From positions 90,261 through 154,260 of the forward strand of contig NZ_SOHM01000025.1 in NCBI RefSeq assembly GCF_004403945.1: a stretch of 64,000 nucleotides of DNA. The letters run 5' to 3'. Below the pieces are notes generated by a model. That model saw only the letters and a program-made list of their open reading frames with translations, was not told the DNA's origin and ran no database searches. Positions 30,018 to 52,974 of the stretch are shown here, piece by piece. A program made the translations under genes and the position numbers. Source of the stretch: Cryobacterium lactosi. GTDB taxonomy: Bacteria; Actinomycetota; Actinomycetes; Actinomycetales; Microbacteriaceae. Every line of letters begins with the position of its first letter. The stretch's first letter is position 1.

Positions 30018-30204
30018 AGTGAGATCGTCTCACCTACCACCGACACTGCCGCCCCCCGCGGGCACACCCCAGCCGACTCATCCGCGAACCGTGAGAAAGG
30101 CACCGAAAATCGCGAAAACATGGGGCTCAACTCACAGTTCGCGAGGGGGAGCAGGTCAGATAGACTGCACTCTCAGAAGCAGCAAACTGAATATCGGGCC
30201 ACAC
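30018..30204. other. Intergenic region between HNH pseudogene and riboswitch
   Basis: It holds one degenerate copy of the 61-bp palindrome (30083-30143, listed separately). After it, GATAGACTG (30156-30164) near TCAGATAGACTGCACTC could be part of a -10 region for the glycine-cleavage transcript. I see no gene here. Confidence 0.5.
30083..30143. repeat. 61-bp intergenic palindrome, copy A (degenerate centre)
   Basis: Outer arms CGCGAACCGTGAG (30083-30095) and CTCACAGTTCGCG (30131-30143) pair with one mismatch. The 35-base centre no longer pairs well, but read on the minus strand it aligns with copy C (AGCCCC ... TCGCG ... TTTT ... GGTGC). It lies upstream of both flanking genes, so unlike the other copies it is not between convergent genes. 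Confidence 0.8.
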
Positions 30205-30446
30205 GGTCGATGCGGGAGAGTTCGACGTCGTCAAGACGAGCGAACACCGAAGGAGCAATCCTCCCCGACAATCTCTCAGGTACTCGTACCGCATCGAACG
30301 GGCCACTCTGAAAAGCGGATGAGCACAGCGCGTCCGGGCCTCGCCTCGCGGGATCCGGTCAGAACTGCCAAGTCCCGCCCATGGTGAAAGCCGGCGTCGT
30401 GCAAGCGACCCGGCGAAGCTCTCAGGCCAGACGACAGAGGGGGAGT
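30205..30446 (+). ncRNA. Glycine riboswitch, tandem aptamers, upstream of gcvT
   Basis: Aptamer 1 shows the conserved blocks GGGAGAG (30214-30220), CACCGAAGGAGCAA (30245-30258), CTCTCAGG (30273-30280) and ACTCTG (30305-30310). Aptamer 2 shows CCCGGCGAAG (30410-30419), CTCTCAGG (30419-30426) and ACAGAGGGGGAG (30434-30445). The 5' half of aptamer 2 is less canonical and its boundary is uncertain. It ends about 70 bases before the gcvT ATG. Glycine binding normally turns on the cleavage system downstream. No clear terminator hairpin was found between aptamer 2 and gcvT, so control may act on translation. Confidence 0.9.
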
Positions 30447-30517
30447 TCCCAACGGGGTTCGAACGAGCCCCGGAGCAACTCGTCGGGCAGGTAGCCCGGC
30501 GACGAACCGGAGAACTC

Positions 30518-31693
30518 ATGACCTCGGCCAGCCCTGACCTCACCCCCTCCTCGAACGAGCCTGCCCCGACCAGCGCCGCGACCGAACGGTTCTCGCCCCT
30601 GCACGCCGCGCACGTGGCCGCCGGCGCCAGTTTCACCGACTTCGCCGGCTGGCAGATGCCCGTGCGCTATTCCAGCGACCTCGCCGAGCACCACGCCGTG
30701 CGCAAGGCCGCTGGTCTGTTCGACCTGTCCCACATGGCCGAGATCCGGGTCAGCGGCCCGCAGGCCGGCGAGTTCCTCGACCACGCCCTGGCCGGCCAGC
30801 TCTCGGTGATTGACCTTATGCAGGCCAAGTACAGCCTGCTGCTCAATTCCCGCGGCGGCATCATCGACGACCTCGTCGTCTATCGCACCGGAGAGACCGA
30901 GTTCCTCGTGGTCGCCAACGCCGGCAACCACGACCAGGCCCTCGACGCCCTCACCGCCCGAGCCGCCCGGTTCGACGTGACCGTCACCGACGAGAGCGAT
31001 GACACCGCCCTCATCGCCGTGCAGGGCCCCAACGCCCTCGCCATCGTGCAGGCCACCGCTGGTCTCAGCGTTGACGGCGATCTGGCCGGCCTCCGCTACT
31101 ACCGCTCGATGACCGGCGGATTTGCCGGCTCCCCGGTACTCATCGCCCGCACCGGCTACACCGGCGAGGACGGCTTCGAGCTCTACCTGCCGAACGCCGC
31201 CGCCCTCGCCCTCTGGGACGCGATCGTCGTCGCCGGCGCCCCGCATGACCTGGTTCCGGCCGGTCTCGCCAGCCGCGACACGCTGCGCCTCGAAGCGGGC
31301 ATGCCGCTTTACGGTCACGAGCTGACCACATCCACCTACCCCGCCCAGGCCGGCCTCGGCCGGGTTGTCAACCTCGCCAAGCCAACCGACTTCGTCGGTC
31401 GCACCGCCAGCGAGGAAGGACCCGCCGGCGACGCCCCCGTGCTCGTCGGCCTGGTCTCCGCCGGCAAGCGCGCCGGTCGCGCCGGCTACCAGATCTTCCG
31501 CAGCCCCGACGCCACCGAAGCAGAGGGTGTCATCACGAGTGGCGCACTCTCGCCCACCCTCGGTTACCCGATCGCCATGGCATACCTGCCGCCGGCGCTG
31601 GCCCGACTCGACACCGAGGTGTTCATCGACGTGCGCGGTACGCGTGCGCCGGCCACGGTGATCGCCCTGCCGTTCTACAAGCGCCGCAAATAG
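30518..31693 (+). CDS. gcvT: Glycine cleavage system T protein (aminomethyltransferase)
   Basis: 391 residues. It transfers the methylene group from aminomethyl-lipoyl H protein to tetrahydrofolate and releases ammonia. Diagnostic parts are FTDFAGWQMPVRY, AGLFDLSHMAEI, LLLNSRGGIIDDLVVYR, RTGYTGEDGFELYLP and GLASRDTLRLEAGMPLYGHEL. A 25-residue Ser/Pro/Thr-rich extension precedes the usual start. It is the first gene after the glycine riboswitch, and gcvH and gcvP follow; the lipoamide dehydrogenase (L protein) gene is not here. Confidence 0.97.
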   Translation: MTSASPDLTPSSNEPAPTSAATERFSPLHAAHVAAGASFTDFAGWQMPVRYSSDLAEHHAVRKAAGLFDLSHMAEIRVSGPQAGEFLDHALAGQLSVIDLMQAKYSLLLNSRGGIIDDLVVYRTGETEFLVVANAGNHDQALDALTARAARFDVTVTDESDDTALIAVQGPNALAIVQATAGLSVDGDLAGLRYYRSMTGGFAGSPVLIARTGYTGEDGFELYLPNAAALALWDAIVVAGAPHDLVPAGLASRDTLRLEAGMPLYGHELTTSTYPAQAGLGRVVNLAKPTDFVGRTASEEGPAGDAPVLVGLVSAGKRAGRAGYQIFRSPDATEAEGVITSGALSPTLGYPIAMAYLPPALARLDTEVFIDVRGTRAPATVIALPFYKRRK

Positions 31694-31703
31694 CGCAACT
31701 GCG

Positions 31704-31729
31704 CGCGGATGCCCGGCCCCGGGCATCCG
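31704..31729 (+). terminator. Hairpin between gcvT and gcvH
   Basis: GCGGATGCCCGG pairs with CCGGGCATCCGC around a two- to four-base loop (CCCC region). It lies inside the gcvTHP operon without a T tract, so it is more likely an mRNA-processing or attenuating stem than a full stop. Confidence 0.5.
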
Positions 31730-31807
31730 CACACCCGATGTCGCGCCGCCGCGCATCGCCCCTGAACTGATCCACCCCCTGTGATCGCCCCTTTGAGAGG
31801 AAACCCC

Positions 31808-32179
31808 ATGGCAGACAAGACCGAACTCCAGTACACAGCAGAGCACGAATGGGTGCTCGTTGACGGCGACACCGCCACCGTCGGTATCACCGCCTACGCC
31901 GCCGACAAGCTCGGCGACGTGGTCTTCGTTGAGCTGCCCGAGGTGGGCAGCGCCGTCGCCGCCGGCACCGTCGTCGGCGAGATCGAGTCGACCAAGTCGG
32001 TCGGCGAACTCTTCGCCCCCATCAACGGCACCGTCGCCGAGATCAACGACGCCGTCGTCGACAGCCCCGAACTCGTCAACAGCGACCCGCTCGGCGCGGG
32101 CTGGCTCATCAAGGTGACCTTCGAGACCCTCCCCACCCTGCTCAGCTACGCCGAGTACTCCGCCATCATCGGCGAATAA
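31808..32179 (+). CDS. gcvH: Glycine cleavage system H protein (lipoyl carrier)
   Basis: 123 residues; the ATG at 31808 follows GAGAGG and gives the normal N-terminus. The lipoylated residue is Lys63 in [12 protein letters not shown]. The protein shuttles the aminomethyl intermediate between P, T and L proteins. It lies 114 bases after gcvT; that gap holds a GC-rich inverted stretch (GCGGATGCCCGG / CCGGGCATCCGC at about 31704-31729) that may tune relative expression. Confidence 0.97.
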
Positions 32180-32241
32180 CCTCACCCGATTCCTCCAGAC
32201 CCGACCTGACCTGACCGACCCCGGAAAGAGCCTCTCCACAC

Positions 32242-35139
<2,898 letters not shown>

Positions 35140-35147
35140 ATCCCCGT

Positions 35148-35208
35148 CGCGAACTGAGAGAAAAGCCCCGAAAACGTCACGTTTTCGGGGCTTTTCTCAC
35201 GGTTCGCG
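35148..35208. terminator. 61-bp intergenic palindrome, copy B; two-way terminator
   Basis: Outer arms CGCGAACTGAGAG and CTCACGGTTCGCG enclose a perfect inner stem (AAAAGCCCCGAAAACG, then TCA, then CGTTTTCGGGGCTTTT). The inner part is a textbook two-way intrinsic terminator, a GC stem followed by TTTT on each strand. It lies between convergent gcvP and the CPBP protease gene. Confidence 0.9.
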
Positions 35209-35211
35209 GTA

Positions 35212-36027
35212 CTAGGAGGCGGGGGTCAGGAGGGCGGGCCACCAGAGGACCGCCAGGGGGTAACCGACGAACGAGAGGATGTCGAGCACCCAGTGTGCGA
35301 TCACCAGCGGCATCACCCGGCCCCAACGCAGGTAGCACCAGCCGAAGACGACACCCATCAGTGCGTTGCCCACGAAGGGGCCGATGCCCTGGTAGAGGTG
35401 GTAGCTGCCGCGCAGCAGTGCCGCCGAGACGATGATGGTCCAGGCGTTCCAGCCCAGCTCCTTCAGCCGGGTGAACAGGTAGCCCACCACGATGACTTCC
35501 TCCACCAGCGCACTGCGGAGCGCGGAGAACACCAGGATCGGGATGGTCCACCAGAAGGTGTCCAGCGGTGACGGCACCACGGCCACGGTGAAGCCGAGCG
35601 CCCGGCCGGCCAGATAGAGACCGAGACCCGGGATGCCGATGATGAGCAGCAGCGCCCCGCCGCGCAGCAGGTCCCGGCGCGGCTGGGTGAAATCCACGCC
35701 GAGTCGCCGGAAAGAGCTGCGGCCCGGCTGCCAGAGCAGGTAGAGCACCAGGGCCACCGGGAACAACGCGAAGGCGATGCCGAGGAACTGGTAGGTGAGG
35801 TCGAGCCACTCCCGCGTCGACTGGGAACCGTTGATCGTGGCCGACTGGTCGCCAAGGGCGACCTCCGCGGTCAGCCTGGAGATGATCGACACGACCGAGT
35901 ACACCGCGGATGCGCCGAGCGAGAGCCCGAGCACGATAGCGATCTCCCAGCGCAGCCTGACCCGCACCGCAGCCGGGAAGACTGCGGAAGTCGGGCCGGC
36001 CGGCCCAACGGGCCTGGCGTCGCTCAT
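35212..36027 (-). CDS. CPBP family intramembrane metalloprotease
   Basis: 271 residues, with about seven hydrophobic segments. CPBP motifs are EEVIVVGYLF (Glu176, Glu177), His210 in GSYHLYQG, and His245 in IAHWVLDI. The Arg of the usual EExxxR motif is replaced by Val, a variant I recall in actinobacterial members. Relatives cleave substrates in the membrane, such as prenylated peptides or anti-sigma factors; the target here is unknown. It overlaps the preceding DCC gene by ATGA. Confidence 0.87.
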   Translation of the reverse strand: MSDARPVGPAGPTSAVFPAAVRVRLRWEIAIVLGLSLGASAVYSVVSIISRLTAEVALGDQSATINGSQSTREWLDLTYQFLGIAFALFPVALVLYLLWQPGRSSFRRLGVDFTQPRRDLLRGGALLLIIGIPGLGLYLAGRALGFTVAVVPSPLDTFWWTIPILVFSALRSALVEEVIVVGYLFTRLKELGWNAWTIIVSAALLRGSYHLYQGIGPFVGNALMGVVFGWCYLRWGRVMPLVIAHWVLDILSFVGYPLAVLWWPALLTPAS

Positions 36028-36416
36028 GCGGCGCCCGGCATCCGGCACGCGGGGGTGCCGCCGGGCAGCCGGTACCGGTACCGGGCTACCAGGCGATATC
36101 CGCCGTCCGCCATCCACGACCACGGCGGTACCGTGGCCAACCAGCCGAGCATGCGCAAAGCCGCATGCGGTTGGCCGCGCAACAAAGCCGCGACCGCTTC
36201 GGCACCGCCGTAGCGCCGCCCAGCGGTCACGAACCACACTCTGGACCTGGCCTCCTCCTCTGTGAGCCCGAAGGCCCCGAGGTCGGCCCACTGGAATGGC
36301 ACGGTCGCGGGCACCCTGGGCATGGTGCGCTCCAGCCACCGCACGGCGGTCGTGCAGAAGCCGCAATCCCCATCGAAAATCAAGGTGGCGGGCCGTTCGG
36401 ACAGGGGGTTCGACAT
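36024..36416 (-). CDS. DCC family (DUF393) thiol-disulfide oxidoreductase-like protein
   Basis: 130 residues from the ATG at 36416. The family-defining motif is IFDGDCGFCTTAVRWLERTM. The rest (VWFVTAGRRYGGAEAVAALLRGQPHAALRMLGWLATVPP and YRLVARYRYRLPGG) fits DUF393. The two Cys in DGDCGFC suggest a redox role. It is the first gene of a two-gene unit with the CPBP protease (4-base overlap). Confidence 0.88.
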   Translation of the reverse strand: MSNPLSERPATLIFDGDCGFCTTAVRWLERTMPRVPATVPFQWADLGAFGLTEEEARSRVWFVTAGRRYGGAEAVAALLRGQPHAALRMLGWLATVPPWSWMADGGYRLVARYRYRLPGGTPACRMPGAA

Positions 36417-36718
36417 CCCTCTATCTTGCGCCCTGACGGTTGCCCGGCGCACGCGCAAAGCTGAAACCGCTCTCATGAAATCGCTTGCACATGCTGCGGG
36501 GACCAAAGTCCCAAGCATCGTGAGAGATCCTCGCAAGATTCGCAGATAAAGCTGGAAATTTCCATCTCCGCGCAAGAATCGTGCGTCTTATGTTTCTGCT
36601 CGGTAACGTTTGCCGTTACGTTTTGCACCGGGCGCGAGACCTACCTAGGGTTTTGATAACTAGAGCACCGCTATGGTCACGAACCACTGCGGCGCCAACC
36701 CTTTGCACAGGAGGAATT
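36417..36718. promoter_or_regulatory. Divergent control region before the second ABC importer
   Basis: About 300 bases without a gene. GTAACG (36603-36608) and CGTTAC (36614-36619) form an inverted repeat with a 5-base spacer, a possible operator. Just after it, TTGCAC (36623-36628) and TAGGGT (36646-36651), 17 bases apart, are a plausible sigma-70 promoter for the importer operon. AGGAGG at 36709-36714 is the ribosome site. The part from 36417 to 36600 is AT-richer than its surroundings and shows nothing else recognisable. Confidence 0.5.
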
Positions 36719-38338
36719 TTGAAGAGATCCCGCATGGGCCTCAGCGCCCTCGCGCTCATTTCGGTCAGCGCCCTGGCGCTGTCGGGCTGCGCGACATCGA
36801 ACGACGACGAGGCCACTGCGGCCGGCGACGCGTCCGCTATCGTCAGCACCAACGGCAGCGAGCCGCAGAACCCGCTGATCCCGACCAACACCACCGAGAC
36901 CGGCGGCGGCAAGATCGCCACGTCGATCTTCGCGGGCCTGGTCTCCTACAACGCCGCCGGCGAGATCGAGAACGAGGTCGCCAAGTCGATCGAGTCCGAC
37001 GACGCCACCAACTGGACCGTCACGCTCAACGACGGCTGGACCTTCACCAACGACGAGCCCGTCACGGCTTCGTCCTTCGTGGATGCCTGGAACTACGGCG
37101 CACTCTTCAGCAACGCCCAGAGCGCTTCCTACTTCTTTGACGACATCGTCGGCTTCGACTACGAGGTTGACTCCGAACTGACCGGCCTCAAGGTCGTCGA
37201 CGACACGACCTTCACGGTCGAGCTCGCTTCGCCCGAGGCCGACTGGCCGCTGCGCCTCGGCTACACGGCCTTCATGCCGCTGCCGAGCGCCGCGTACGAC
37301 GACATGGCTGCCTTCGGTGAGAACCCGATCGGCAACGGCCCGTACATGCTCGATGGCGAAGGCGCCTGGGTTCACGAGGAAAAGATCAACCTCGTGACCA
37401 ACCCGGCATACGACGGCGTGCGCAAGCCCGTCAACGGTGGCCTCGAGATCAAGTTCTACTCCACCCAGGATGCCGCATACGCGGATGTCCAGGGTGGCAA
37501 CCTCGATGTGCTCGACGCTGTTCCGGACTCCGCGTTCGAAACCTACGAAGCCGAATTCGGCGAGCGTTCGGTCAACCAGGCAGCAGCCATCTTCCAGGGC
37601 TTCAACATGCCTTACTACCTCGAGCACTGGAGCGGCGAAGAGGGCAAGCTGCGTCGTGCAGCCATCTCGATGTCGATCAACCGCGAGGAAATCACCGACG
37701 TCATCTTCCAGGGCACCCGTACCCCGGCAACCGACTTCACCTCCCCGGTCATCGACGGCTACTCCGACCAGCTCGACGGCGCCGAAGTTCTCGAATACAA
37801 CCCGGACGAGGCCGTCAAGCTGTGGGCCGAGGCTGACGCCATCGCACCGTACGGCGACACCACGTTCGACATCGCCTACAACTCCGACGGTGGCCACCAG
37901 GCCTGGGTCGATGCAGTGATCAACAGTGTCGTCAACACGCTGGGCATCTCCGCAACCGGCAAGCCGTACCCGACCTTCGCCGCAGCGCTCGAAGACCGCT
38001 CGAACGACGCACTGACCGGTGGAACGCGCGCCGGCTGGCAGGGCGACTACCCGTCGATGTACAACTTCCTCGCTCCGCTGTACCAGACCGGTGCCGGCTC
38101 GAACTACGAGGACTACTCGAGCGAAGAGTTCGACACCCTCCTCAAGGAAGGCGCCGCGGCCTCAACCGTCGAGGACGCCACCGCCAAGTACCAGGCTGCT
38201 CAGGAAGTCCTGCTCAAGGACCTCCCGTCTATCCCGCTGTGGTACTCCAACGTCAACGGCGTGTGGGCTGACACCGTCAGCGACGTGGTATTCGGCTGGG
38301 ACTCCGTCCCGCTGTACTACCAGATCACCAAGGGTTAA
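36719..38338 (+). CDS. ABC transporter substrate-binding lipoprotein, family 5 (oligopeptide type)
   Basis: 539 residues. The start taken is TTG at 36719 (reading MKRSRMG) because AGGAGG lies just upstream and Lys-Arg residues suit a signal peptide; the ATG at 36734 is an alternative. The lipobox is LSGCAT. WTVTLNDGWTFTNDEPVTASSFVDAWNYGA and LRRAAISMSINREEITDVIFQGTRTPA are typical of OppA/DppA. A stable hairpin follows the gene, then permease and ATPase genes. It precedes typA as the SBP-5 relative lpqW does in mycobacteria (from memory). Confidence 0.92.
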   Translation: MKRSRMGLSALALISVSALALSGCATSNDDEATAAGDASAIVSTNGSEPQNPLIPTNTTETGGGKIATSIFAGLVSYNAAGEIENEVAKSIESDDATNWTVTLNDGWTFTNDEPVTASSFVDAWNYGALFSNAQSASYFFDDIVGFDYEVDSELTGLKVVDDTTFTVELASPEADWPLRLGYTAFMPLPSAAYDDMAAFGENPIGNGPYMLDGEGAWVHEEKINLVTNPAYDGVRKPVNGGLEIKFYSTQDAAYADVQGGNLDVLDAVPDSAFETYEAEFGERSVNQAAAIFQGFNMPYYLEHWSGEEGKLRRAAISMSINREEITDVIFQGTRTPATDFTSPVIDGYSDQLDGAEVLEYNPDEAVKLWAEADAIAPYGDTTFDIAYNSDGGHQAWVDAVINSVVNTLGISATGKPYPTFAAALEDRSNDALTGGTRAGWQGDYPSMYNFLAPLYQTGAGSNYEDYSSEEFDTLLKEGAAASTVEDATAKYQAAQEVLLKDLPSIPLWYSNVNGVWADTVSDVVFGWDSVPLYYQITKG

Positions 38339-38355
38339 TTCCTAGTTCCAACCGC

Positions 38356-38394
38356 AGTGCAATGTCCGGGGCGTCAAGCCCCGGACATTGCACT
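38356..38394 (+). terminator. Perfect 17-bp hairpin between binding-protein and permease genes
   Basis: AGTGCAATGTCCGGGGC (38356-38372) and its exact complement (38378-38394) enclose GTCAA. No T tract follows. Stems at this place in ABC operons usually let part of the transcription stop or protect the 5' mRNA, so more binding protein is made than channel. Confidence 0.85.
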
Positions 38395-38453
38395 GACTAG
38401 ACTCATTCAGTGATTGCGATCCTCATGCATAAAAGATTCTCGGAGCTCACCTG

Positions 38454-39383: not shown

Positions 39384-40313
39384 GAGTGGCCAGGCCCACT
39401 TCGTCGCGGAGCTGGAAGACACCCCGGTAGCCCCGATCGATCGTCTCGACGAGTCCCAGAAGGCTCGCAGCACCTGGGCGGATGCCTGGGACTCGATGCG
39501 CCGCCGACCGATGTTCTGGATCTCCTCAGTGCTGATCCTGCTCATCGCCGTCGTCGCGCTGTTCCCCGGACTATTCACCTCGGTGTCGCCGAACCTGGAC
39601 TGCCAGCTGGCCAACAGCAACGGCGGCCCCGTCGCCGGTCACCCGTTCGGCTTCACCCGCCAGGGTTGCGATGTCTACGCGCGCACAATCTTCGGCACGC
39701 AGGCTTCGGTCACCGTCGGCCTACTGGCCACCGCGCTCGTCACCCTTTTGGGCGTCGTCGTCGGTGCGCTGGCCGGTTACTACGGCGGCTGGCTCGACGC
39801 GATCGTCTCCCGTGTCGGCGACATCTTCTTCGCCATCCCCACCATCCTCGGCGCCATCGTGCTGATGTCGGTACTGCCGGCCGCGACGCCCACCTCGGTC
39901 GCGTTCGTGCTGTCGATCTTCGCCTGGCCCCAGATCGCCCGCATCATGCGCGGTGCGGTGCTGTCGGCCACGAACTCCGACTACGTGATGGCTTCGACCG
40001 CCCTGGGCGTGTCGAAGTTCCGCATCCTGCTGCGCCATGTGATCCCCAACTCGATCGCCCCGGTCATCGTGATCGCCACAGTGTCGCTCGGAACGTTCAT
40101 CGTGGCCGAATCGACCCTGTCGTTCCTGGGTATCGGGCTGCCGTCGAACGTGATGTCGTGGGGTAACGACATCAGCCAGGCACAGACATCCCTTGTCACC
40201 AACCCGCAGGTGCTCCTGTACCCCGCGGCCGCCCTGTCCATCACGGTGCTCGCGTTCCTGATGCTCGGCGACATTCTGCGCGACGCGCTTGACCCGAAGG
40301 CGAGGGCGCTTCG

Positions 40314-40317: not shown

Positions 40318-42062
<1,745 letters not shown>

Positions 42063-44170: not shown

Positions 44171-44186
44171 TTCACAGCAACACCTG

Positions 44187-44236
44187 ACCGCAGGCATCCT
44201 GTTCCGGCTTTCCGGCGCGGGGTGCCTGCGGTTTTT
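44187..44236 (+). terminator. Intrinsic terminator of typA
   Basis: ACCGCAGGCA (44187-44196) pairs perfectly with TGCCTGCGGT (44223-44232), followed by TTTT. The long loop contains a further small CCGG stem. Confidence 0.88.
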
Positions 44237-44282
44237 GCCACCCGCTCCCGCGTCTCGCGCGCGCCAAGCACCTGAGGACCTC

Positions 44283-44744
44283 ATGACCACTGGATTGAAG
44301 ACGACGACGTCACCGCTGCGGATGGCCCTGGCCGTGGCGGCGATGCTGGCCGTGGCGCCGGCGCTGGCCGGCTGCTCCGACGGCCAGGTGCAGGATGCCG
44401 TGAACGGCGCCGTGCAGGGTGCCACCGACGGCGATGTGAGCCTGGGCGGCGCGCTGCCGGACGGCTGGCCTGCCGAGATCCCCGTCATCGACGGGGAGAT
44501 CAAGTTCGGCGCCGGCAACACCACCAACGGCGATCAGGGCTGGGTGGTCACCGTGGCCTCCAGTGCCGCCGACCCGCTGGCCGACGCGGAACAGAAGCTC
44601 GTGGACGCCGGCTTCGTGCCCGACACCAGCGCCTCGGCCAATGTGGGCGACGTCGGGGTAGTGGCGATGACCGGCGCTACCTACGCCGTCACGATCGCCG
44701 GCACGCCCGACGGTGTGCTCTACACGGTCGCACCCGCCGCATAA
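44283..44744 (+). CDS. Small secreted lipoprotein
   Basis: 153 residues from the ATG at 44283 (GAGGA before it). The signal peptide ends in ALAGCSDG, a lipobox. The mature part has VQDAVNGAVQGATDGDVSLGGALPDGWPAEIPVIDGEIKFGAGN and a compact C-terminus with no Cys. I do not recognise a characterised family; similar short lipoproteins are common in Microbacteriaceae. It stands between typA and the efe operon. Confidence 0.75.
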   Translation: MTTGLKTTTSPLRMALAVAAMLAVAPALAGCSDGQVQDAVNGAVQGATDGDVSLGGALPDGWPAEIPVIDGEIKFGAGNTTNGDQGWVVTVASSAADPLADAEQKLVDAGFVPDTSASANVGDVGVVAMTGATYAVTIAGTPDGVLYTVAPAA

Positions 44745-44749
44745 CCCCT

Positions 44750-44810
44750 CGCGAACTGTGAGTTAAGCCCCGAAAACTCGCGTTTTTAGGTGCTTAGCTC
44801 ACGGTTCGCG
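44750..44810. terminator. 61-bp intergenic palindrome, copy C
   Basis: Outer arms CGCGAACTGTGAG and CTCACGGTTCGCG (one mismatch) enclose a centre with AAGCCCCGAAAA / TTTTTAGGTGCTTA, which pairs imperfectly. It lies between the convergent lipoprotein gene and efeB and probably terminates both. Confidence 0.85.
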
Positions 44811-44812
44811 GG

Positions 44813-46114
44813 TCAGGCGAAGAGGGGTGCGCCCACGTAGGAGCCCTCCGCGGCACCCGGGGGCACCACGAAGAGGGCCGAGCCGACGTGGCGGATGTAC
44901 TCGTTGAGGGCATCGTGGCGGGCCAGGTTCAGCTGCACGGTCGTGAAGCTCGCCGGGGTGCGCTGGAAACTGATGAAGAACAGCCCGGCGTCCAGACGGC
45001 CCAGTGAATCGTTGCCGTCGACGAAGTTGTAGCCGCGGCGCAGGATGCGGAGGCCGTCGTTCTGGGCGGGGTGCGCCAGGCGCACGTGCGCTGCGGTGTC
45101 GATGAGCGGCTGGTCGGCCCGCCCGGCGATCGTGAAGTCGGGTTCGGTGAACTCGGTGCCGCCGGACAGCGGCGCACCCTCCCTCTTGTCGCGGCCGATC
45201 ACGGTCTCCTGCTCACGCAGGCTGGTGCGGTCCCAGGTCTCGATGGTCATCCGGATGCGCCGGGCCACCAGGTAGGACCCGCCGGCCAGCCAGGCCGGCC
45301 CGTCCGACGCGCCCACCCAGAGGTGCTCGGTGGCCGCGGCGGGCTCCTCAGCCTTGATGTTGGCGGTGCCGTCCTTGAACCCGAACAGGTTGCGCGGGGT
45401 GGCCTGGCTGGTGCTGGTGGACGAGGTGCGGCCGAAACCGAGCTGCGACCAGCGGATCGCCGCCCGGCCGAAGGCGATGCGGGAGAGGTTACGGATGGCG
45501 TGCACGGCCACCTGGGGGTCGTTCGCGCAGGCCTGGATGCAGAGGTCGCCGCCGCTCCTGGTCTCCTCGAGCATGTCGCCCGGGAAATGCGGCAGCTCCA
45601 CGAGGTCCGCCGGCCGGCGGGCGGCCAGGCCGAACCTGTCCACGCCGGCCGCGTTCTGGAAGAGGGTCGGCCCGAAGCCGAACGTGATGGTCAGCCCGGC
45701 CGGCGGTAGGCCGAGGGCTTCGCCGGTGTCCTCCGGCGGCGCGTCGTACGGCCCGCTGACGGAGCCGTAGTCACCGACGTCCGCTCCCGCGGTCATCGCG
45801 GCGGCCGCCACGGTCCAGTCCTGGAGCAGTTCGATGAGGTCCGCCCTGGTGGTGCCGTCGGCGACGTCGAACGCGGCGAAGTGCAGCCGGTCCTGGGCCG
45901 GGGTCACGATGCCGGCCTGGTGCTTCTGATAGAACGGGTACACAGCTCCGGCGCTGGTCTGGGCGGAGGACGCCGCCACGGCCAGCGCGGCCCTGTCGCC
46001 GGCGATTCCCAGCCCGACACCGGCCACCCCGACCCCGGCCAGGCCGAACAGGCCTCGCCTGGACAGGCCGCGGGGTTCCTGCGCATCCGTTGTGGGGTCG
46101 GGGGAGTCGGTCAT
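44813..46114 (-). CDS. efeB: Dyp-type heme peroxidase EfeB, Tat-exported
   Basis: 433 residues. The Tat signal is SRRGLFGLAGVGVAGVGLG at 18-36, fitting export of a folded heme protein. The distal Asp/Arg region is NLFGFKDGTANIK, and the proximal His lies in ANDPQVAVHAIRNLSRIAFG. The C-terminal FVDGNDSLGRLDAGLFFISFQRTP is typical of EfeB. It is the last gene of efeU-efeO-efeB, which takes up ferrous iron; EfeB is thought to oxidise Fe(II) or deferrochelate heme outside the membrane. Confidence 0.94.
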   Translation of the reverse strand: MTDSPDPTTDAQEPRGLSRRGLFGLAGVGVAGVGLGIAGDRAALAVAASSAQTSAGAVYPFYQKHQAGIVTPAQDRLHFAAFDVADGTTRADLIELLQDWTVAAAAMTAGADVGDYGSVSGPYDAPPEDTGEALGLPPAGLTITFGFGPTLFQNAAGVDRFGLAARRPADLVELPHFPGDMLEETRSGGDLCIQACANDPQVAVHAIRNLSRIAFGRAAIRWSQLGFGRTSSTSTSQATPRNLFGFKDGTANIKAEEPAAATEHLWVGASDGPAWLAGGSYLVARRIRMTIETWDRTSLREQETVIGRDKREGAPLSGGTEFTEPDFTIAGRADQPLIDTAAHVRLAHPAQNDGLRILRRGYNFVDGNDSLGRLDAGLFFISFQRTPASFTTVQLNLARHDALNEYIRHVGSALFVVPPGAAEGSYVGAPLFA

Positions 46115-46128
46115 CGGCTGTTCTTTCG

Positions 46129-47298
46129 TTAGAGCACGAGCGTAGCGGTCAGCTGGTTCAACGGCTCGCCGAGGGCGTTCACCTGGTCGGCGAACGCCTT
46201 GATCTCGGCCGGGGTGAGCTCGGTGTAGAGGGTGAAGCCGTCACCCACGCGCTGGGCGTCGAGCAGCGCCTGCAGCTCGGCGAACTCGGTGTCGAGCTCG
46301 GCGGCCAGATCCGCGTCTTCCTCGAGCAGGATGTCGCGCACGCCGGCGTAGAGCACCGTCGCACCGTCGATGTTGGCCTGGAAGTCCCACAGATCGGTGT
46401 GTGACCAGAACTCTTCCTCGCCGGTGACCTTGCCGGTCGCGACCTCGTCGAGCAGGCCGATGGCTCCGTTGGTCTGCTGGGACAGAGTGAAGTCCAGGTC
46501 CTGCACCTTGTCGTTCAGCGTGGTGGTGTCCTCGACGAGCAGCCGGCTCAGGTCCTGGCGCTGATCGGGCGTGTAGGCGGCGAAGCCGGCCTCTGCTTCG
46601 GCCGGCCAGAGGTCCTTCTCGATGGCGTGCCAACCGGTCCAGTCCTGACCCTCTTCGAGGTCGGCCTCACGCAGGTCCAGTTGCGGGTCGAGGTCACCGA
46701 ACGACTCTGCGACAGTCTCCACCCGCTCCCAGTGAGCCCGGGTGGGTGCGTACAGGGCGCGGGCGGTGTCGTCGTCGCCGGCCAGGTAGGCGTCGGCGAA
46801 GGCCTGGGTTCCGGTGAGGAGCTGGGCGATCTGGTCGCGCACGTAGGCCGCGTAGTTGGTGTTGGCCAGGGCGACCTGGGCGTCCAGGTCGGCATCGATC
46901 ACGACGTCGTCGCCGGAATCGGTGACGGTGAATGCCTTCTGGTCCATGCCCGCGCCGACCATCCCTGGCTTGCAGGTTGTCACATAGTGACCGGGCTTCA
47001 GCTGCACGACCAGGTCGCGGCTGAGGCCGGGGCCGATGTTCTCGACCTCCCCGACGATGCGCAGGCCGTCTTCGGCGAGCAGGTAGAACTCGGTGACCTG
47101 ATCGCCGGAATTGGTCACGGCGAAGCTCACGTTGCCCGACGGGGCCTCGTCGGCCGACAGCGTGCAGGCATCCGCACTGCTGTCGACGGTGAGCGCCGCG
47201 CCGGTCGAGCCGGTGTCTGTGGCGTTGGCGACGCAGCCGGTCAGGGCCAAGAGGCCCACAGCTGAGGCGGCGACGAGGGGGAGGAGGCGGGCGCGCAT
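46129..47298 (-). CDS. efeO: Iron uptake lipoprotein EfeO (cupredoxin + M75 domain)
   Basis: 389 residues with a lipobox (LTGCVA). An N-terminal cupredoxin domain spans about 35-125, and the M75 imelysin-like domain follows, with the metal motif HWERVE (HxxE) near 190 and GWHAIEKDLWPAE. This is the long EfeO form with both domains. It binds iron outside the membrane and passes it to EfeU. It lies 14 bases upstream of efeB and 46 downstream of efeU, in one operon. Confidence 0.94.
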   Translation of the reverse strand: MRARLLPLVAASAVGLLALTGCVANATDTGSTGAALTVDSSADACTLSADEAPSGNVSFAVTNSGDQVTEFYLLAEDGLRIVGEVENIGPGLSRDLVVQLKPGHYVTTCKPGMVGAGMDQKAFTVTDSGDDVVIDADLDAQVALANTNYAAYVRDQIAQLLTGTQAFADAYLAGDDDTARALYAPTRAHWERVETVAESFGDLDPQLDLREADLEEGQDWTGWHAIEKDLWPAEAEAGFAAYTPDQRQDLSRLLVEDTTTLNDKVQDLDFTLSQQTNGAIGLLDEVATGKVTGEEEFWSHTDLWDFQANIDGATVLYAGVRDILLEEDADLAAELDTEFAELQALLDAQRVGDGFTLYTELTPAEIKAFADQVNALGEPLNQLTATLVL

Positions 47299-47344
47299 GG
47301 GTGTCCTTCGGCGAGGGGTGCGGGGTGTTCGGGAGTGAGCGGGG

Positions 47345-48202
47345 CTAATGGGCGACGGCCGCAGGTGCGGCCCGGCGTGGTGCGGCGGTGGGAACCGGCC
47401 TGGCCTGGCGGCTCTTGAGGATGAAGAGGGTCAGGGTGGGGACCGTGTAGGCGACCCAGGCGAACATCTCCAGCCAGGTCGTGGCCGGCGAGAAGTTGAG
47501 GGTGCCTTTGAGCAGGGTGCCGTACCAGCTGTCCGGAGGTATCACGGCCGAGACGTTGAAGGCCAGCGCGTTCAGCCCGGGCAGGATGCCGGCCTCTTGC
47601 AGGTCGTGCACACCATAGGAGAGGACGCCGGCGGCGACGATGATGAGGATGGCGCCGGTCCAGGTGAAGAACCGGCTCAGGTTGATCTTGAGCATGCCGG
47701 CATAGATCAGCCAGCCCAGGCCCACGGCGGTGAGGATGCCCAGGCTCGCGCCGACCAGCGGCAGCGTGGTCTCGCCTGTTGCCTGCACGGCCGCCCAGAT
47801 GAACAGTGCCGTCTCGATGCCCTCGCGGCCGACCGCGAGAAAGGCGACCAGGACCAGGCCCAGCCCGGTTCCGGCCAGGTGTTTGTCGATGCTGCCGTGC
47901 AGGTGCCCCTTGAGGTCGCGGGCGGTGCGCAGCATCCAGAACACCATCCAGGTCACCAGGCCCGTCGCGATGATGGAGAGCAGCCCGCCGATGGTCTCCT
48001 GCGCGGTGAAGCTCAGGCCGTAGGTGCCGAAGGTGAGGATGGCGCCCAGCACGAGGGCCAGGAGGACAGCGAGGCCGACGCCGGCCCACAGTCGGGGGAG
48101 GACGTCGCGGCGGCCGATCTTGACCACGTAGGCGATCAGGATCGTCACGATCAGCGCGGCTTCGAGTCCTTCGCGCAGGCCGATCAGGTAGTTTGCAAGC
48201 AC
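47345..48202 (-). CDS. efeU: Ferrous iron permease EfeU (FTR1 family)
   Basis: 285 residues from the GTG at 48202, chosen because GGGAAG precedes it and the family starts ANYLIGLREGLEAALIV. The two REXXE iron motifs are REGLE (helix 1) and REGIE (helix 4), with seven hydrophobic segments in all. It is the membrane channel of the EfeUOB system and the first gene of the operon. A DtxR/IdeR-like box lies 53 bases upstream. Confidence 0.94.
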   Translation of the reverse strand: MLANYLIGLREGLEAALIVTILIAYVVKIGRRDVLPRLWAGVGLAVLLALVLGAILTFGTYGLSFTAQETIGGLLSIIATGLVTWMVFWMLRTARDLKGHLHGSIDKHLAGTGLGLVLVAFLAVGREGIETALFIWAAVQATGETTLPLVGASLGILTAVGLGWLIYAGMLKINLSRFFTWTGAILIIVAAGVLSYGVHDLQEAGILPGLNALAFNVSAVIPPDSWYGTLLKGTLNFSPATTWLEMFAWVAYTVPTLTLFILKSRQARPVPTAAPRRAAPAAVAH

Positions 48203-48254
48203 AGAGCTTCCCGGTTGTTGTGGGTGGGTGTGGTGAGTGGGGCAATACGACAAC

Positions 48255-48273
48255 AATGGTAAGGCTTACCTTA
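48255..48273 (-). promoter_or_regulatory. DtxR/IdeR iron box upstream of efeU
   Basis: AATGGTAAGGCTTACCTTA contains the 13-bp palindrome GGTAAG-G-CTTACC and agrees with the known 19-bp DtxR/IdeR consensus (TWAGGTWAGSCTWACCTWA) at nearly all positions. Its place before an iron-uptake operon supports repression by Fe(II)-loaded DtxR/IdeR. The divergent gene at 48377 could also feel it, though it is 100 bases away. Confidence 0.85.
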
Positions 48274-48376
48274 CTCACTCACTCTACGTAGGTTCGGCGG
48301 ATGTGTCCAGCTAAGATTTGTCAGCGGCCCGTGCCGCCCTGCTATCCGCGCATCCACGTATTCTCAGGAGTCACCC

Positions 48377-49378
48377 ATGCTTAGGTCCGGAAACGGCGAA
48401 CGGGTGGTCTTTGTGCTCGATGCCCCCGGCGACGAATCGTTGCTGACCGGCGGCACCATCGCGCGGCTCCTCGCCGCCGGTGCCGAGGTCACCGTGCTGT
48501 TCGGTGCGGCAACGCCCGGCGAGAGTGCCCCGGCGGCACCGGGTTCGGGTGCGGCATCCGTCGGCGCCGCGGCCGTCGCCGCCGCCCGCACCGCCCTGGG
48601 AGAGAACGACCCCACCCGCTGGCGGGTGCTGGCTGCGACCGAGCAAGGTGCTGAGCCGCGTGAGACGCTCGTCGAAGCTTTCGCCCTGGCGGACGCCACC
48701 GCCGTCGTGGCCGCTGCCGTCGACTCCGACCTGCGCCAGGCCGTTGTGGACGCGGCCGGCGCCCACCGTGTCCAGGTCTTCCTCAGGAGCAGCGTCACGG
48801 CCGCCCCCGGTGCCCGGCTCACCGCGATCGACGTGACCGATCACCTCGACCGGAAGCTGGCCGCCCTGGCCGCGTACTCGGGCCGGTGGCAGCTCACGGA
48901 CAAGGTGGTGCGCCACGGTGACGGCACCGAGACCCTCGTCACCGGCACCGAAACCTACGCGCGCGGCACTGCTCCGGCAGGGCCAGCGGAACTCGAGCCG
49001 CCCACTGTCGGCTCCCGTGTGCTGGCCGCCCTGATGGCTTTCGCCGCCGGCTCGCTGTTCGGGGTGCTCGGCACGGTGGCGCACCAGACCACCGTCGACG
49101 TCGGCCCCCTGACCGTGCCGGTCGGCCTGGTCCTGGCGCTGCTCGCCAGCGGCACCCTGCTGCTGGGTCTCCGTCTCGTCGTGCGGGACCGGCTGGTCGT
49201 CCTCGCTGCGGGGATCGGTCTGCTGGGCACGGTTTTCCTGCTGTCGCTGCGCAGTACAGGCGGATCGGTCCTGGTGCCCGCCGGAGTGCTCGGCACCGTC
49301 TGGACGATGGCGCCCGCGCTGTTCGCCGCCCTCGTCATCGCGTGGCCACGAATTCCCGCTCGTCGGCCGAACGCGTAG
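48377..49378 (+). CDS. PIG-L/MshB-like protein with damaged active site, fused to a membrane domain
   Basis: 333 residues. Residues 9-45 (VVFVLDAPGDESLLTGGTIARLLAAGAEVTVLF) align with the start of PIG-L deacetylases such as MshB, whose motif is HAHPDDES. Here it reads LDAPGDES, so the first zinc His and the catalytic Asp are lost. The middle (to about 175) resembles a shrunken PIG-L domain. From about 205 there are four hydrophobic segments. In mycobacteria mshB lies in the same neighbourhood, upstream of fdxC-dapC (from memory). It is probably not an active deacetylase; a binding or structural role is possible. Confidence 0.7.
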   Translation: MLRSGNGERVVFVLDAPGDESLLTGGTIARLLAAGAEVTVLFGAATPGESAPAAPGSGAASVGAAAVAAARTALGENDPTRWRVLAATEQGAEPRETLVEAFALADATAVVAAAVDSDLRQAVVDAAGAHRVQVFLRSSVTAAPGARLTAIDVTDHLDRKLAALAAYSGRWQLTDKVVRHGDGTETLVTGTETYARGTAPAGPAELEPPTVGSRVLAALMAFAAGSLFGVLGTVAHQTTVDVGPLTVPVGLVLALLASGTLLLGLRLVVRDRLVVLAAGIGLLGTVFLLSLRSTGGSVLVPAGVLGTVWTMAPALFAALVIAWPRIPARRPNA

Positions 49379-49414
49379 ACTGATTATTCAGTTCGTGAAG
49401 GGAATCCTGCCACT

Positions 49415-49738
49415 GTGACGTATGTCATCGCCTTGCCCTGCGTGGACGTCAAGGATCGCGCTTGCGTCGACGAATGCCCCGTCGACTGCATTTACGAGGG
49501 TGAGCGCTCCCTCTACATCCACCCCGACGAATGTGTCGACTGTGGCGCCTGTGAACCGGTCTGCCCGGTCGAGGCCATCTACTACGAAGACGACCTGCCC
49601 GAACAGTGGGCCGATTACTACAAGGCCAACGTCGAGTTCTTCGACGACATCGGCTCGCCCGGTGGCGCCGCCAAGGTGGGCGTAATCGCCAAGGACCACC
49701 CGGTGATCTCGGTGCTCCCGCCCCAGGTCCAGCACTAA
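49415..49738 (+). CDS. fdxA: Ferredoxin, 7Fe type
   Basis: 107 residues, GTG start. Cys residues are arranged for a 3Fe-4S cluster (C9, [10 protein letters not shown]) and a 4Fe-4S cluster ([12 protein letters not shown]). The C-terminal tail [26 protein letters not shown] is typical of actinobacterial and Azotobacter-like 7Fe ferredoxins. It carries electrons in the cytoplasm. dapC begins 3 bases after the stop; this pairing is conserved in actinobacteria, though its meaning is unclear. Confidence 0.94.
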
Positions 49739-49741
49739 AAG

Positions 49742-50863
49742 GTGCTCAAGCCACTTCCCGACTACCCGTGGGATGCGATGCTGCCCTTCGCCGAGCAGGC
49801 CAGGAGCCACGCGGACGGCATCGTCGACCTCTCCATCGGGTCTCCCGTCGACCTCACCCCGTCCGTCGTGCAGGCCGCTCTGGCCTCCGCCACGGACGCG
49901 CACGCCTACCCGCAGACCACCGGCACCCCGGCGCTGCAGCACGCCATCATCGACTGGTACGCCCGCCGCCGCGGCGTGACCGGGTTGAGCGCGAAGAACG
50001 TGCTGCCCACCATCGGCTCGAAGGAGCTGGTGGCGCTGCTGCCGTTCATGATCGGCGTCGGCGAGGGTGACACCGTCGTGCATCCCCGTGCCGCGTACCC
50101 CACCTACGCGATCGGTGCGGCCATGGCCGGGGCGGATGCGTTCCCCTCCGACGACCCCGCAGAATGGCCGGAGACGACCAAGCTGATCTGGCTGAACAGC
50201 CCGGGCAACCCGGACGGACGGGTGCTGGACGTCGACGCTCTGAGCAGAGCGGTGGCCCGCGCCCGGGAGCTGGGCGCCGTGATCGTCAACGACGAGTGCT
50301 ACGCCGAACTCGGCTGGGCCACACCGTGGGACGCCGAGCCGATCCCGAGCATCCTCGACCCCCGCGTCACCGACGGGGACATGCACAACATTGTGGCCAT
50401 CTACTCGCTGAGCAAGCAGTCCAACATGGCCGGCTACCGCGGCGCATTCGCCGCCGGCAGCGACGAGGTCCTTGGCCGGCTGCTCACCGTGCGGAAGCAC
50501 GCGGGCCTGATGCTGCCCGCCCCGCTGCAGGCCGCGATGGTGGCCGCCCTGGGCGACGACGAACACGTCGCCGTGCAGCGCGAGCGCTACCGTGCCCGCC
50601 GTGAGGTGCTGCTGCCCGCGCTCGTCGCGGCCGGCTTCAGCATCGACCGGAGCGAGGCGGGCCTGTACCTGTGGGCGACCGCCGGCGGCGACGCCTGGGA
50701 GTCGATCCGGCAACTGGCCGAGTTGGGCATCCTTGCCGGCCCCGGCCCGTTCTACGGCGACTTCTATCCCGAGCACGTGCGGTTCTCGCTCACCGCCAGC
50801 GACGAGCGCATCAACGCCGCTGCAGCCCGGCTGCGGGCCTGGGCCCACCCCGCTGAGGCATAA
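49742..50863 (+). CDS. dapC: Succinyldiaminopimelate transaminase
   Basis: 373 residues, GTG start 3 bases after fdxA. It is a class I/II aminotransferase with LNSPGNPDGRVLD, VNDECYAEL, the PLP-lysine motif SLSKQSNMAGYRGAF, and the final Arg in VRFSLT. Position next to the ferredoxin and relative to dapD/dapE supports DapC, which makes N-succinyl-LL-diaminopimelate from N-succinyl-2-amino-6-oxopimelate. Without the context it would only be a general aminotransferase. Confidence 0.9.
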   Translation: MLKPLPDYPWDAMLPFAEQARSHADGIVDLSIGSPVDLTPSVVQAALASATDAHAYPQTTGTPALQHAIIDWYARRRGVTGLSAKNVLPTIGSKELVALLPFMIGVGEGDTVVHPRAAYPTYAIGAAMAGADAFPSDDPAEWPETTKLIWLNSPGNPDGRVLDVDALSRAVARARELGAVIVNDECYAELGWATPWDAEPIPSILDPRVTDGDMHNIVAIYSLSKQSNMAGYRGAFAAGSDEVLGRLLTVRKHAGLMLPAPLQAAMVAALGDDEHVAVQRERYRARREVLLPALVAAGFSIDRSEAGLYLWATAGGDAWESIRQLAELGILAGPGPFYGDFYPEHVRFSLTASDERINAAAARLRAWAHPAEA

Positions 50864-50909
50864 CTCCTGCAGGAGTTGTGCTCAGCGCGGACCTGCCTAG
50901 GCTGTGGAC

Positions 50910-51299
50910 ATGGGTGACAGCGCCGCTCACGACAGTGCAGCACAAAACGACAGGACAGCCGAGGCCTACGCGGCGAGCGTCGTCGCCCTGCATGCCCTGA
51001 TCAGTGAGCTGCCCGCGCATCCGCGGGTGACCCACGGTCGCATGTTCAACGGCGACGGCGTGATGGTGCACGAGAAGGTGTTCGCGTTCATCGGCCGCAA
51101 CGGCGACCTGGTCGCCAAGGTCCCGGAACCCCGCGTGCTCGAGATGGTGGCCCTGGAGGCCGGCGTGCCCGTCGTGATGGGCAGACGCACCATGCGCGAG
51201 TGGGTGCGACTCCCGGCCGAAGCCGGCGTGGGCGCCTGGAGCGAGCTGCTCGACGAGGCCTACAGCTTCGGTCTGAGCCGCCCGGCATCGATCCGGTAG
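50910..51299 (+). CDS. TfoX N-terminal domain protein
   Basis: 129 residues (ATG at 50910; an ATG two codons earlier is possible). GRMFNGDGVMVHEKVFAFIGRNGDLVAKVPEPRVLEMVALEAG and MREWVRLPAEAG match the TfoX_N fold. Outside competence regulators of gammaproteobacteria, the role of this domain is unknown. Here it is a single short protein with no DNA-uptake genes nearby. Confidence 0.8.
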   Translation: MGDSAAHDSAAQNDRTAEAYAASVVALHALISELPAHPRVTHGRMFNGDGVMVHEKVFAFIGRNGDLVAKVPEPRVLEMVALEAGVPVVMGRRTMREWVRLPAEAGVGAWSELLDEAYSFGLSRPASIR

Positions 51300-51569
51300 G
51301 AACCCCGCCGGCCCGCCTGATGGCGGGCAATCGGGTCCTATGGCCCTAGCGCTGCCTCGCGCGGCGGTACGCTGGAAAACATCGCGGCTGCACCGCGGAA
51401 CTGACTGTGGTGTAGTGCCAATGGACTCCGGTCGATATTGGCGGATGCAACAGTATGCCCCTCGGCGGAATAGGCTGTAGGCGGGTTATCGTTGCCAAGC
51501 ACCACGAGCGTGCTGCGGCGGACCGCCACAGACCAACAGCCGAAAGGCTTTGAAATCCAGGGAGGCGCC
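51300..51569. other. Leader region of citrate synthase gene
   Basis: 270 bases with no gene. It has an AT-richer middle (51400-51480) where promoters are likely, but no -35/-10 pair stood out clearly. GGGAGG at 51560-51565 serves the GTG at 51570. Confidence 0.5.
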
Positions 51570-52910
51570 GTGAGCGACGTCGCGCAGCGAACACCATCCA
51601 ATGAGCCGCAGTTCATCGATCGGCCCGTACCGGGCCCGCAGGTGGCCACTCTGACCTACCCGGGGGGCACGGCGCAGTTCCCGATTCTGGGCAGCACAGA
51701 CGGCCCATCCAGCATCGACATCGCGACGCTGACCAAGCAGACCGGCTACACCACGTTCGACTCCGGTTTTGTGAACACGGCGGCAACGAAGTCAGCGATC
51801 ACGTACATCGACGGTGAGCACGGGATCCTCCGCTACCGTGGTTATCCGATCGAGCAGATCGCGCAGAATTCCAGCTTTCTCGAGACCGCGTGGCTGTTGA
51901 TCTACGGTGAGCTGCCCAGCGCCAGCGAACTCAGTGGCTTCGACACCCGCATCCGTCGTCACACGCTGCTGCACGAGGACCTGCGCCGCTTCTATGACGC
52001 CCTGCCGCACAACGCACACCCCATGTCGGTGCTGTCGGCCGGCGTCTCGGCGCTGTCGACCTACTACCAGGACTCCCTGAACCCCAAGGACCCGGAGCAG
52101 GTCGAACTGTCGATGATCCGACTGCTCGCGAAGCTGCCGGTGATGGCCGCGTACGCGCACAAGAAGAGCATCGGTCACGCCTTCCTGTACCCCGACAACT
52201 CGCTGAGCTTCGTGGACAACTTCATCAAGCTCAACTTCGGCACCCTCGCCGAGCCGTACGAGGTCAACCCCGTCGTGAGCAAGGCGCTCGAGCGCCTGCT
52301 GATGCTGCACGAAGACCACGAGCAGAACGCGTCCACGTCGGCCGTGCGTCTGGTCGGCTCCACCGAGGCCAACCTGTTCGCCTCGGTCTCCGGCGGCATC
52401 AACGCCCTCTCCGGCCCGCTGCACGGCGGCGCCAACGAGGCCGTGCTCACCATGCTCAGCGACATCAAGGCCTCCGGCGAAGGCGTGCAGCGCTACGTCG
52501 AACGGGTCAAGAACAAGGAAGCCGGCGTGCGCCTGATGGGCTTCGGCCACCGGGTCTACAAGAACTACGACCCCCGTGCCAAGCTGGTCAAGGAGAGCGC
52601 CGACGCCGTGCTCGAAGCCCTCGGCGTGAAGGACGACCTGCTCGACATCGCCAAGGAGCTCGAGTTCATCGCGCTCAACGACGACTACTTCAAGGAGCGC
52701 AAGCTCTACCCCAACGTGGACTTCTACACCGGTGTGATCTACAAGGCAATGGGCTTCCCGCCGCGCATGTTCACCGTGCTGTTCGCCATCGGCCGGCTGC
52801 CGGGCTGGATCGCGCACTGGCGCGAGATGAACCTGGATGCGACCACCAAGATCGGCCGCCCCCAGCAGCTGTACACGGGCGCGGTCGCCCGCGACTACCC
52901 GCTGCGTTAG
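51570..52910 (+). CDS. gltA: Citrate synthase
   Basis: 446 residues from the GTG at 51570, selected over the ATG at 51492 because GGGAGG lies just before it. Catalytic elements: His in LLMLHEDHEQNAS, GPLHGGANEAVL, and GFGHRVYKNYDPRAKL. It condenses acetyl-CoA and oxaloacetate at the entry of the citric acid cycle. It has the length and N-terminal beta domain of type II (hexameric, NADH-sensitive family) enzymes. Palindrome copy D terminates it. Confidence 0.96.
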   Translation: MSDVAQRTPSNEPQFIDRPVPGPQVATLTYPGGTAQFPILGSTDGPSSIDIATLTKQTGYTTFDSGFVNTAATKSAITYIDGEHGILRYRGYPIEQIAQNSSFLETAWLLIYGELPSASELSGFDTRIRRHTLLHEDLRRFYDALPHNAHPMSVLSAGVSALSTYYQDSLNPKDPEQVELSMIRLLAKLPVMAAYAHKKSIGHAFLYPDNSLSFVDNFIKLNFGTLAEPYEVNPVVSKALERLLMLHEDHEQNASTSAVRLVGSTEANLFASVSGGINALSGPLHGGANEAVLTMLSDIKASGEGVQRYVERVKNKEAGVRLMGFGHRVYKNYDPRAKLVKESADAVLEALGVKDDLLDIAKELEFIALNDDYFKERKLYPNVDFYTGVIYKAMGFPPRMFTVLFAIGRLPGWIAHWREMNLDATTKIGRPQQLYTGAVARDYPLR

Positions 52911-52913
52911 CCT

Positions 52914-52974
52914 CGCGAACTGTGAGAAAAGCCCCAAGAATCTCGGATTCTTGGGGCTTTTCTCACAGTTCGCG
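52914..52974. terminator. 61-bp intergenic palindrome, copy D (perfect)
   Basis: The most regular copy. A 29-base arm beginning CGCGAACTGTGAG is followed by the 3-base loop TCG and the exact complement. The inner stem (AAAAGCCCCAAGAATC) differs from copy B but is fully paired. TTTT follows GGGGC on both strands, as in a two-way terminator. It separates convergent gltA and dapD. Confidence 0.93.

Follow-up and report, generated by a model that had tools for sequence, protein, structure and literature searches.

Dispersed palindromes such as repetitive extragenic palindromic (REP) sequences and their paired form, the REPINs (REP doublets forming hairpins), are usually explained by REP-associated tyrosine transposases (RAYTs). 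Miniature inverted-repeat transposable elements (MITEs) are likewise short and non-coding, with inverted ends, and occur in many copies beside a coding relative, and HNH homing elements are nuclease genes that spread by cutting a site that is repaired from their own copy. In the excerpts of the sources available, REPINs are described as having conserved inverted ends, a less conserved spacer, a fixed length, many extragenic copies and linkage to a RAYT gene (PMC3116915), GTAG- and CGTC-tagged REPs as small palindromic repeats of 20–40 bp between tandem or convergent genes, some of them terminators (PMC3733652), and REP13E12 (DUF222) loci as gene-conversion hotspots in M. tuberculosis (PMC13061034). 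Here we describe a family of 61-bp palindromes, four copies of which (A–D) lie in a stretch of 64,000 nucleotides from Cryobacterium lactosi (contig NZ_SOHM01000025.1, positions 90,261 to 154,260; hereafter the window, in whose numbering positions are given), and the repeated DUF222-HNH gene unit whose 5' end this palindrome forms. A literature search found no description of the 61-base family or of a DUF222-linked palindrome.

The 61-base palindromes are best read as a REPIN-like family partnered by a predicted HNH nuclease rather than by a RAYT. From sequence comparison we propose, with a probability of about 0.45, that they form a dispersed family and at the same time the 5' end of a DUF222-HNH unit of ~1.74 kb, whose predicted nuclease likely binds the palindrome, would cut it and likely spreads both. 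Such a dense REPIN-like family joined to a predicted nuclease gene, with no Y1 transposase found, would mean that palindromes can come to fill a genome in a second way. If true, the reading would also hint at what DUF222 does, a large actinobacterial family of repeated genes whose role is undefined, and the system is directly testable, with recognition site, spacer and candidate enzyme all defined.

Comparison with described systems

Like MITEs, the Cryobacterium palindromes are short and non-coding, with inverted ends, many copies and a coding relative. However, the palindrome is present at the 5' end of the coding unit and not at its 3' end, and the family is therefore not a classical MITE; nor was a target-site duplication seen. 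The DUF222-HNH gene resembles HNH homing elements as a nuclease gene that would spread through cutting and repair, but it does not interrupt its site, and its copies stand at many unrelated loci. With REPINs, as the excerpted account has them (PMC3116915), the family shares inverted conserved ends, a variable spacer of fixed length, many extragenic copies and a gene beside copies. It differs in that no Y1/RAYT gene was found in the 14 genomes searched, in that the linked gene is DUF222-HNH and itself multi-copy, and in that pairing does not appear to be selected in most copies. Tagged REPs, in the portion of their description available (PMC3733652), are also small palindromes between genes, some acting as terminators, but the Cryobacterium element has no GTAG or CGTC end tag (by eye) and measures 61 bp instead of 20–40 bp. 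The mycobacterial REP13E12 repeats share the multi-copy DUF222-HNH genes, whereas the available parts of the two sources mention no dispersed cognate palindrome for them (PMC13061034, PMC10589994).

A repeated DUF222-HNH unit carries the palindrome as its 5' end

Copy A (30083–30143) makes up the 5' end of a broken minus-strand DUF222-HNH unit of the P subfamily (28397–30143), which extends from the palindrome to where the reading frame stops and has both borders in common with five other units in the C. lactosi genome (G000; 4.66 Mb, 53 contigs; other genomes are labelled G001–G056, and loci carry L-numbers). The sequence-only reading that first listed the four palindromes missed that the palindrome forms the 5' end of a repeated unit, of which a broken copy stands beside A. 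The window's gene is disrupted by frameshifts into an open N-terminal fragment of 240 aa (29295–30017, minus strand), with no Pfam match by itself, and a second open fragment of 278 aa (28462–29298, minus strand) that holds the DUF222 part (PF02720, 29.9 bits; cut-off 24.4). The six ~1.74-kb units found in G000 have the same two borders, beyond which their sequences are unrelated. The common block begins at CGCGAAC of the palindrome and finishes at GTTCT, whose last T opens the stop codon. Two pyrimidines precede the unit in 21/21 and two purines follow it in 20/20 of the unit ends read (YY/CGCGAAC...GTTCT/RR, slashes marking the borders); the purines also complete a stop codon. Two G038 units, L182 and L183, lie at different and unrelated sites and match at 98.85% identity over 1741 bp, a length that covers the unit in full and two bases beyond it.

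Protein P0001 combines DUF222 (PF02720, 52.1 bits) with an HNH domain (26.2 bits), both above cut-off, so that the multi-copy gene has the composition of a REP13E12-like unit. The HNH residues are invariant across 44 aligned DUF222-HNH proteins (P0001 and 43 relatives). A structure model (mean pLDDT, the predicted local distance difference test, of 64.5) had no PDB match at E ≤ 0.001 and was not used. Carriage by plasmids or phages was set aside, since the 11 and 7 records, respectively, with remote relatives include none covering 80% of the query. Separately, all 44 proteins end in an invariant PPF, often preceded by acidic residues. We take this end to resemble the C-terminal tail of bacterial single-stranded DNA-binding protein, a tail that recruits repair proteins.

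The palindrome accompanies one DUF222 subfamily. Among the best matches listed, as distinct from all genes, we compared 40 subfamily loci (39 with enough 5' sequence) with 52 loci of other DUF222 genes (51 readable). The palindrome stands upstream of 30/39 subfamily genes, at 21 or more of 26 arm matches, versus 0/51 of the others, 12 of which are in G000. Also among the matches listed, genes of the subfamily, at identities of about 60% and above, occur in all 11 palindrome-rich genomes, described below, and in G042, and the other 45 Cryobacterium genomes have matches of at most 52% identity, weaker ones or none. In the loci read, units of other DUF222 subfamilies have no palindrome of their own common to the copies and begin at another sharp 5' border. 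In L211–L214 and L216–L219 this border lies near CTCCACA, with a conserved TTATCCACA, a DnaA-box sequence, and the 3' border coincides with the stop codon. Mobility may therefore be a general property of DUF222 units.

A dispersed family of nearly constant length

The window's four copies stand where the sequence-only reading placed them, each exactly 61 bp long with 13-base arms (0–1 change per arm) and a 35-base centre. Across G000, the fixed-length arm pattern matches 87 places at up to three mismatches and a reversed control pattern matches none, so the family is not due to chance. When exact arms were required and any gap of 28 to 42 bases was allowed, 41 places were found, all of them 61 bp long except one of 60 bp. 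Among extracted loci the gap is 35 bases in 90 copies and 34 bases in two, four further longer-gap pairings having been set aside as wrong pairings that overlap genuine copies. Copy number, near-constant length and differences in presence between species thus bear out the proposal of a dispersed REP- or REPIN-like intergenic family: the arm is not confined to four places, nor does the length vary freely. By approximate gene calls, one of 55 G000 copies lies inside a gene, and the family is extragenic.

Exact arms (gap 30–40) across a named genome collection gave 56 stretches, every one from Cryobacterium (C. zongtaii, C. arcticum, C. adonitolivorans and strains N22 and 1639). Among 57 Cryobacterium genomes, 11 hold 7 to 90 copies (G000 87, G001 72, G004 63, G005 17, G017 7, G031 20, G035 74, G038 78, G041 90, G044 81 and G056 32), six hold one and 40 hold none. 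The 11 palindrome-rich genomes and G042 form one clade, with citrate synthase 93–100% identical to that of G000 and at most 88% in the rest. In a scan of 398 Microbacteriaceae genomes from 85 genera, ten of the genomes being Cryobacterium, any match at up to two mismatches occurred in 8 genomes of 3 genera, and more than one only in G000, G001 and G035. In another genus, 4/7 genomes carry a single 61–62-base palindrome with arms CGCGAACTGTCAG, located between convergent genes, and a third genus has one palindrome with arms CGCGAAGTGTGAG; no DUF222-HNH gene of the palindrome-linked kind lies near them (loci L314–L321).

Two half-sites around a variable spacer

Each copy has two half-sites in inverted orientation, separated by a spacer of constant length but rapidly changing sequence. 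The half-site consensus, drawn from 133 distinct 61-bp copies, is CGCGARCYGTGAGNWAAGCMCC; after it come NNAAA and a middle that varies. Each arm is preceded by two pyrimidines in ~95% of 274 flanks, solo copies included, and the consensus end, read by eye, is YYCGCG. Observed pairing at each half-site position was compared with that of shuffled halves, since selection on pairing would be expected to make variable positions covary. The most variable positions, 8, 14, 15 and 20, paired at 0.47, 0.23, 0.41 and 0.51 versus 0.55, 0.32, 0.48 and 0.51 in shuffles, which is no covariation, and in most copies the two half-sites, set a constant distance apart, therefore vary largely independently of each other. 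Hairpin pairing as a family-wide constraint was rejected for these four positions. Positions 6, 25, 26 and 28 speak otherwise, pairing beyond shuffles (z of 6.0, 6.2, 7.6 and 3.1, respectively); position 6 differs between lineages, the nearly invariant position 1 also scores z 6.1, and positions 29 and 30 are negative.

Occupancy and spacers change between species

Sites B, D and S (L113/L182) were reached through their flanking sequence in 12 clade genomes, and are thus free of bias towards palindromes. Occupancy of one and the same site differs between species, a kind of difference that the sequence-only reading proposed looking for between strains: copy B is present in 7/12 and absent from 5/12 genomes, and copy D is present in 8/12 (at least 21 arm matches). 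Site S holds a unit in two genomes (G038 and G017), a solo palindrome in six and a decayed or missing element in four. In C. adonitolivorans a solo palindrome is found at a site that holds units in G000 and G038.

When G000 and G038 were aligned site by site, 36 rows had the palindrome in both (35 of 56 G000 sites, one counted twice), and one further G000 site was empty in G038; absences are under-counted here because G038 loci were picked around palindromes. Over the 35 rows of equal length, identity was 93.6% in the flanks, 97.8% in the arms and 79% in the 17-base spacer, with spacer agreement of 1/17 bases at D and 8/17 at B. Identical spacers recur at different loci, in four sets among 55 G000 sites, including copy D with one other and copy C (44750–44810, solo), whose 17-base spacer is identical at two other G000 loci. 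One of the 35 rows, L107 (2888–2948) against L313, shows an in-place inversion between close species, matching at 45/61 positions directly and 56/61 when flipped, with collinear flanks.

Solo copies as remnants of units were rejected, as no unit sequence lies within 600 bp at 50/56 G000 and 43/50 G038 sites, units themselves apart. At these unit-free sites, CATC, the complement of the unit's GATG, lies within 6 bases of an arm in 11/50 and 8/43 cases, respectively.

The sequence-only reading had suggested a RAYT partner. The Y1 (RAYT-type) transposase PF01797 was found in 0/14 Cryobacterium genomes (a control matched in 5/14 named genomes; other transposase families were not searched), and a RAYT or IS200/IS605 origin was rejected on this ground.

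A predicted nuclease as the proposed partner of the palindromes

The simplest account of these observations runs as follows. The DUF222-HNH protein would recognise the two inverted half-sites in dimeric form and cleave the spacer that separates them. Repair of the break from another copy would then swap spacers while arms and length are kept. Occasionally, repair might copy the gene along and so spread the whole unit, and solo elements could be mobilised in trans by the same protein. In favour of this reading we count the upstream palindrome in the one subfamily and in none of the other DUF222 genes, the occupation of the same site by units and by solo copies in different species, and spacers that recur at more than one site or have been exchanged or inverted within arms that are retained. 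The two nearly identical G038 units at different sites and the six G000 units with unrelated flanks point the same way, as do the listing of subfamily genes in all palindrome-rich genomes and G042, the invariant HNH residues of the 44 relatives and the lack of a Y1 transposase in 14 genomes. Gene conversion at DUF222 repeats has a precedent in the M. tuberculosis REP13E12 hotspots, as reported in the excerpt of PMC13061034.

Several points weigh against it. That the protein binds and cuts is something we infer. The left border of the unit is not sharp in every copy, because G038 units L178, L179 and L181 share ~17 further bases to the left of the palindrome, and 9/39 subfamily genes are without a palindrome, six of them in G017 (some with visible remnants) and one each in G056, G038 and G042. 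The 30 upstream palindromes descend from few events, and since subfamily and palindromes are found in one clade, their co-occurrence may reflect descent. Most sites common to G000 and G038 are old. Among 50 G038 sites, identical spacers were found in unit copies only and in no solo copies. No target-site duplication was seen at the few filled and empty pairs, whose flanks have diverged, and no clean empty site was seen for a unit. Finally, G041 has the most copies (90) yet only a split subfamily gene among the matches listed, which favours the main rival explanation.

This rival, the strongest one but in our view rather unlikely, holds that a host DNA-binding protein of two-fold symmetry uses the sites, that selection keeps the arms and that the DUF222-HNH unit captured one such site as its 5' end. 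It would account for G041, for the fixed spacing of the half-sites, for arms that are better conserved than flanks at sites common to G000 and G038 (97.8% versus 93.6%) and for the single related 61–62-base palindromes of another genus with no DUF222 gene nearby. A host binding site is, however, difficult to reconcile with a family that is restricted to one clade and absent from 40/57 Cryobacterium genomes, with the loss of copy B from 5/12 clade genomes and with a palindrome that borders a moving unit. Improbable, in our judgement, is a non-autonomous palindrome moved by some other transposase with the DUF222-HNH unit as its passenger. Such an origin would fit the many sites with no unit sequence within 600 bp (50/56 in G000 and 43/50 in G038) and the palindrome at one end only of the unit, but no candidate was seen (there is no Y1 in 14 genomes; other transposase families were not searched), and the exclusive linkage to one DUF222 subfamily would be a coincidence.

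A wider proposal can tentatively be put forward. DUF222-HNH (13E12) units may be a transposase-free selfish class in which each subfamily has its own defined 5' module; in this Cryobacterium clade the module would be a 61-base site for a dimer, and cut-and-repair gene conversion would carry solo copies of it through the genome, much as RAYTs spread REPINs.

Well-paired copies as likely terminators

Copies B (35148–35208) and D (52914–52974) are solo elements with fully paired AAAA-GC stem-TTTT cores and likely work as bidirectional terminators. Their cores stay paired across species, in 89/90 cells over 6 genomes for B and 104/105 cells over 7 genomes for D, as expected of terminators and in line with the two-way terminator activity that the sequence-only reading proposed for the centre. 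Full pairing, which that reading described for the centres of B and D, is true of these two but not of the family: at least 13/15 core pairs are formed in 9/54 G000 copies with context, and the remaining 45 are poorly paired; the centres of A and C are poorly paired. Selection for pairing was not supported as a rule for the whole family (positions 8, 14, 15 and 20 against it, positions 6, 25, 26 and 28 for it). Convergent settings are found for 7/9 well-paired copies versus 19/45 of the others, and five of the nine have AAAA at both halves. Covariation alone was not significant at site B, where 92/500 shuffles reached the score; at site S, 6/500 did, which speaks for some pairing constraint. 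The changes in copy D form two whole spacer types and thus possibly few events. As judged by eye, site D carries unrelated hairpins in G004 and G042 and a similar core without arms in G017.

The family as a whole does not show the paired GC-rich stem with a U tract of an intrinsic terminator. Transcription-oriented U tracts were rejected as a family trait, the U-tract halves showing no association with the direction of transcription (23/73 versus 11/35, by approximate gene calls; the caller miscalled gcvT, for example). That the palindromes are intrinsic terminators and nothing more, belonging to no element family, is highly improbable. In its favour, B and D are kept paired in 6 and 7 genomes, arm-less hairpins stand at site D in G017, G042 and G004 (by eye, the G017 core resembling that of its relatives) and 7/9 well-paired copies are convergent. 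Against it, this reading leaves the 13-base conserved arms and fixed length unexplained and does not fit the 45/54 poorly paired copies, the U-tract counts (23/73 versus 11/35, approximate gene calls) or a palindrome that borders a repeated unit. In the proposed reading, a smaller part of the family, represented in the window by B and D, was likely co-opted for bidirectional termination at a later stage.

Neighbouring genes and other repeats

The gene settings first described for the four copies, three convergent and one divergent, were confirmed. Copy B lies between gcvP and a CAAX-protease-like gene (open reading frames 32242–35139, plus strand, and 35212–36366, minus strand), copy C between open reading frames 44235–44744 (plus) and 44813–46114 (minus), and copy D between the genes for citrate synthase and a tetrahydrodipicolinate N-succinyltransferase-like protein (51492–52910, plus, and 52982–53980, minus). 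Copy A is flanked divergently by the minus-strand DUF222 gene and plus-strand gcvT. A glycine riboswitch (RF00504, 64.6 bits; 30203–30301, plus strand) lies between copy A and gcvT. Downstream of 5S rRNA genes (L072–L074, L029 and L055), palindromes stand beside or within ~215-bp arrays that include another dispersed repeat, GGTCTCGACARGCTCGACC, and G044 and G017 have this other repeat at the site of copy B.

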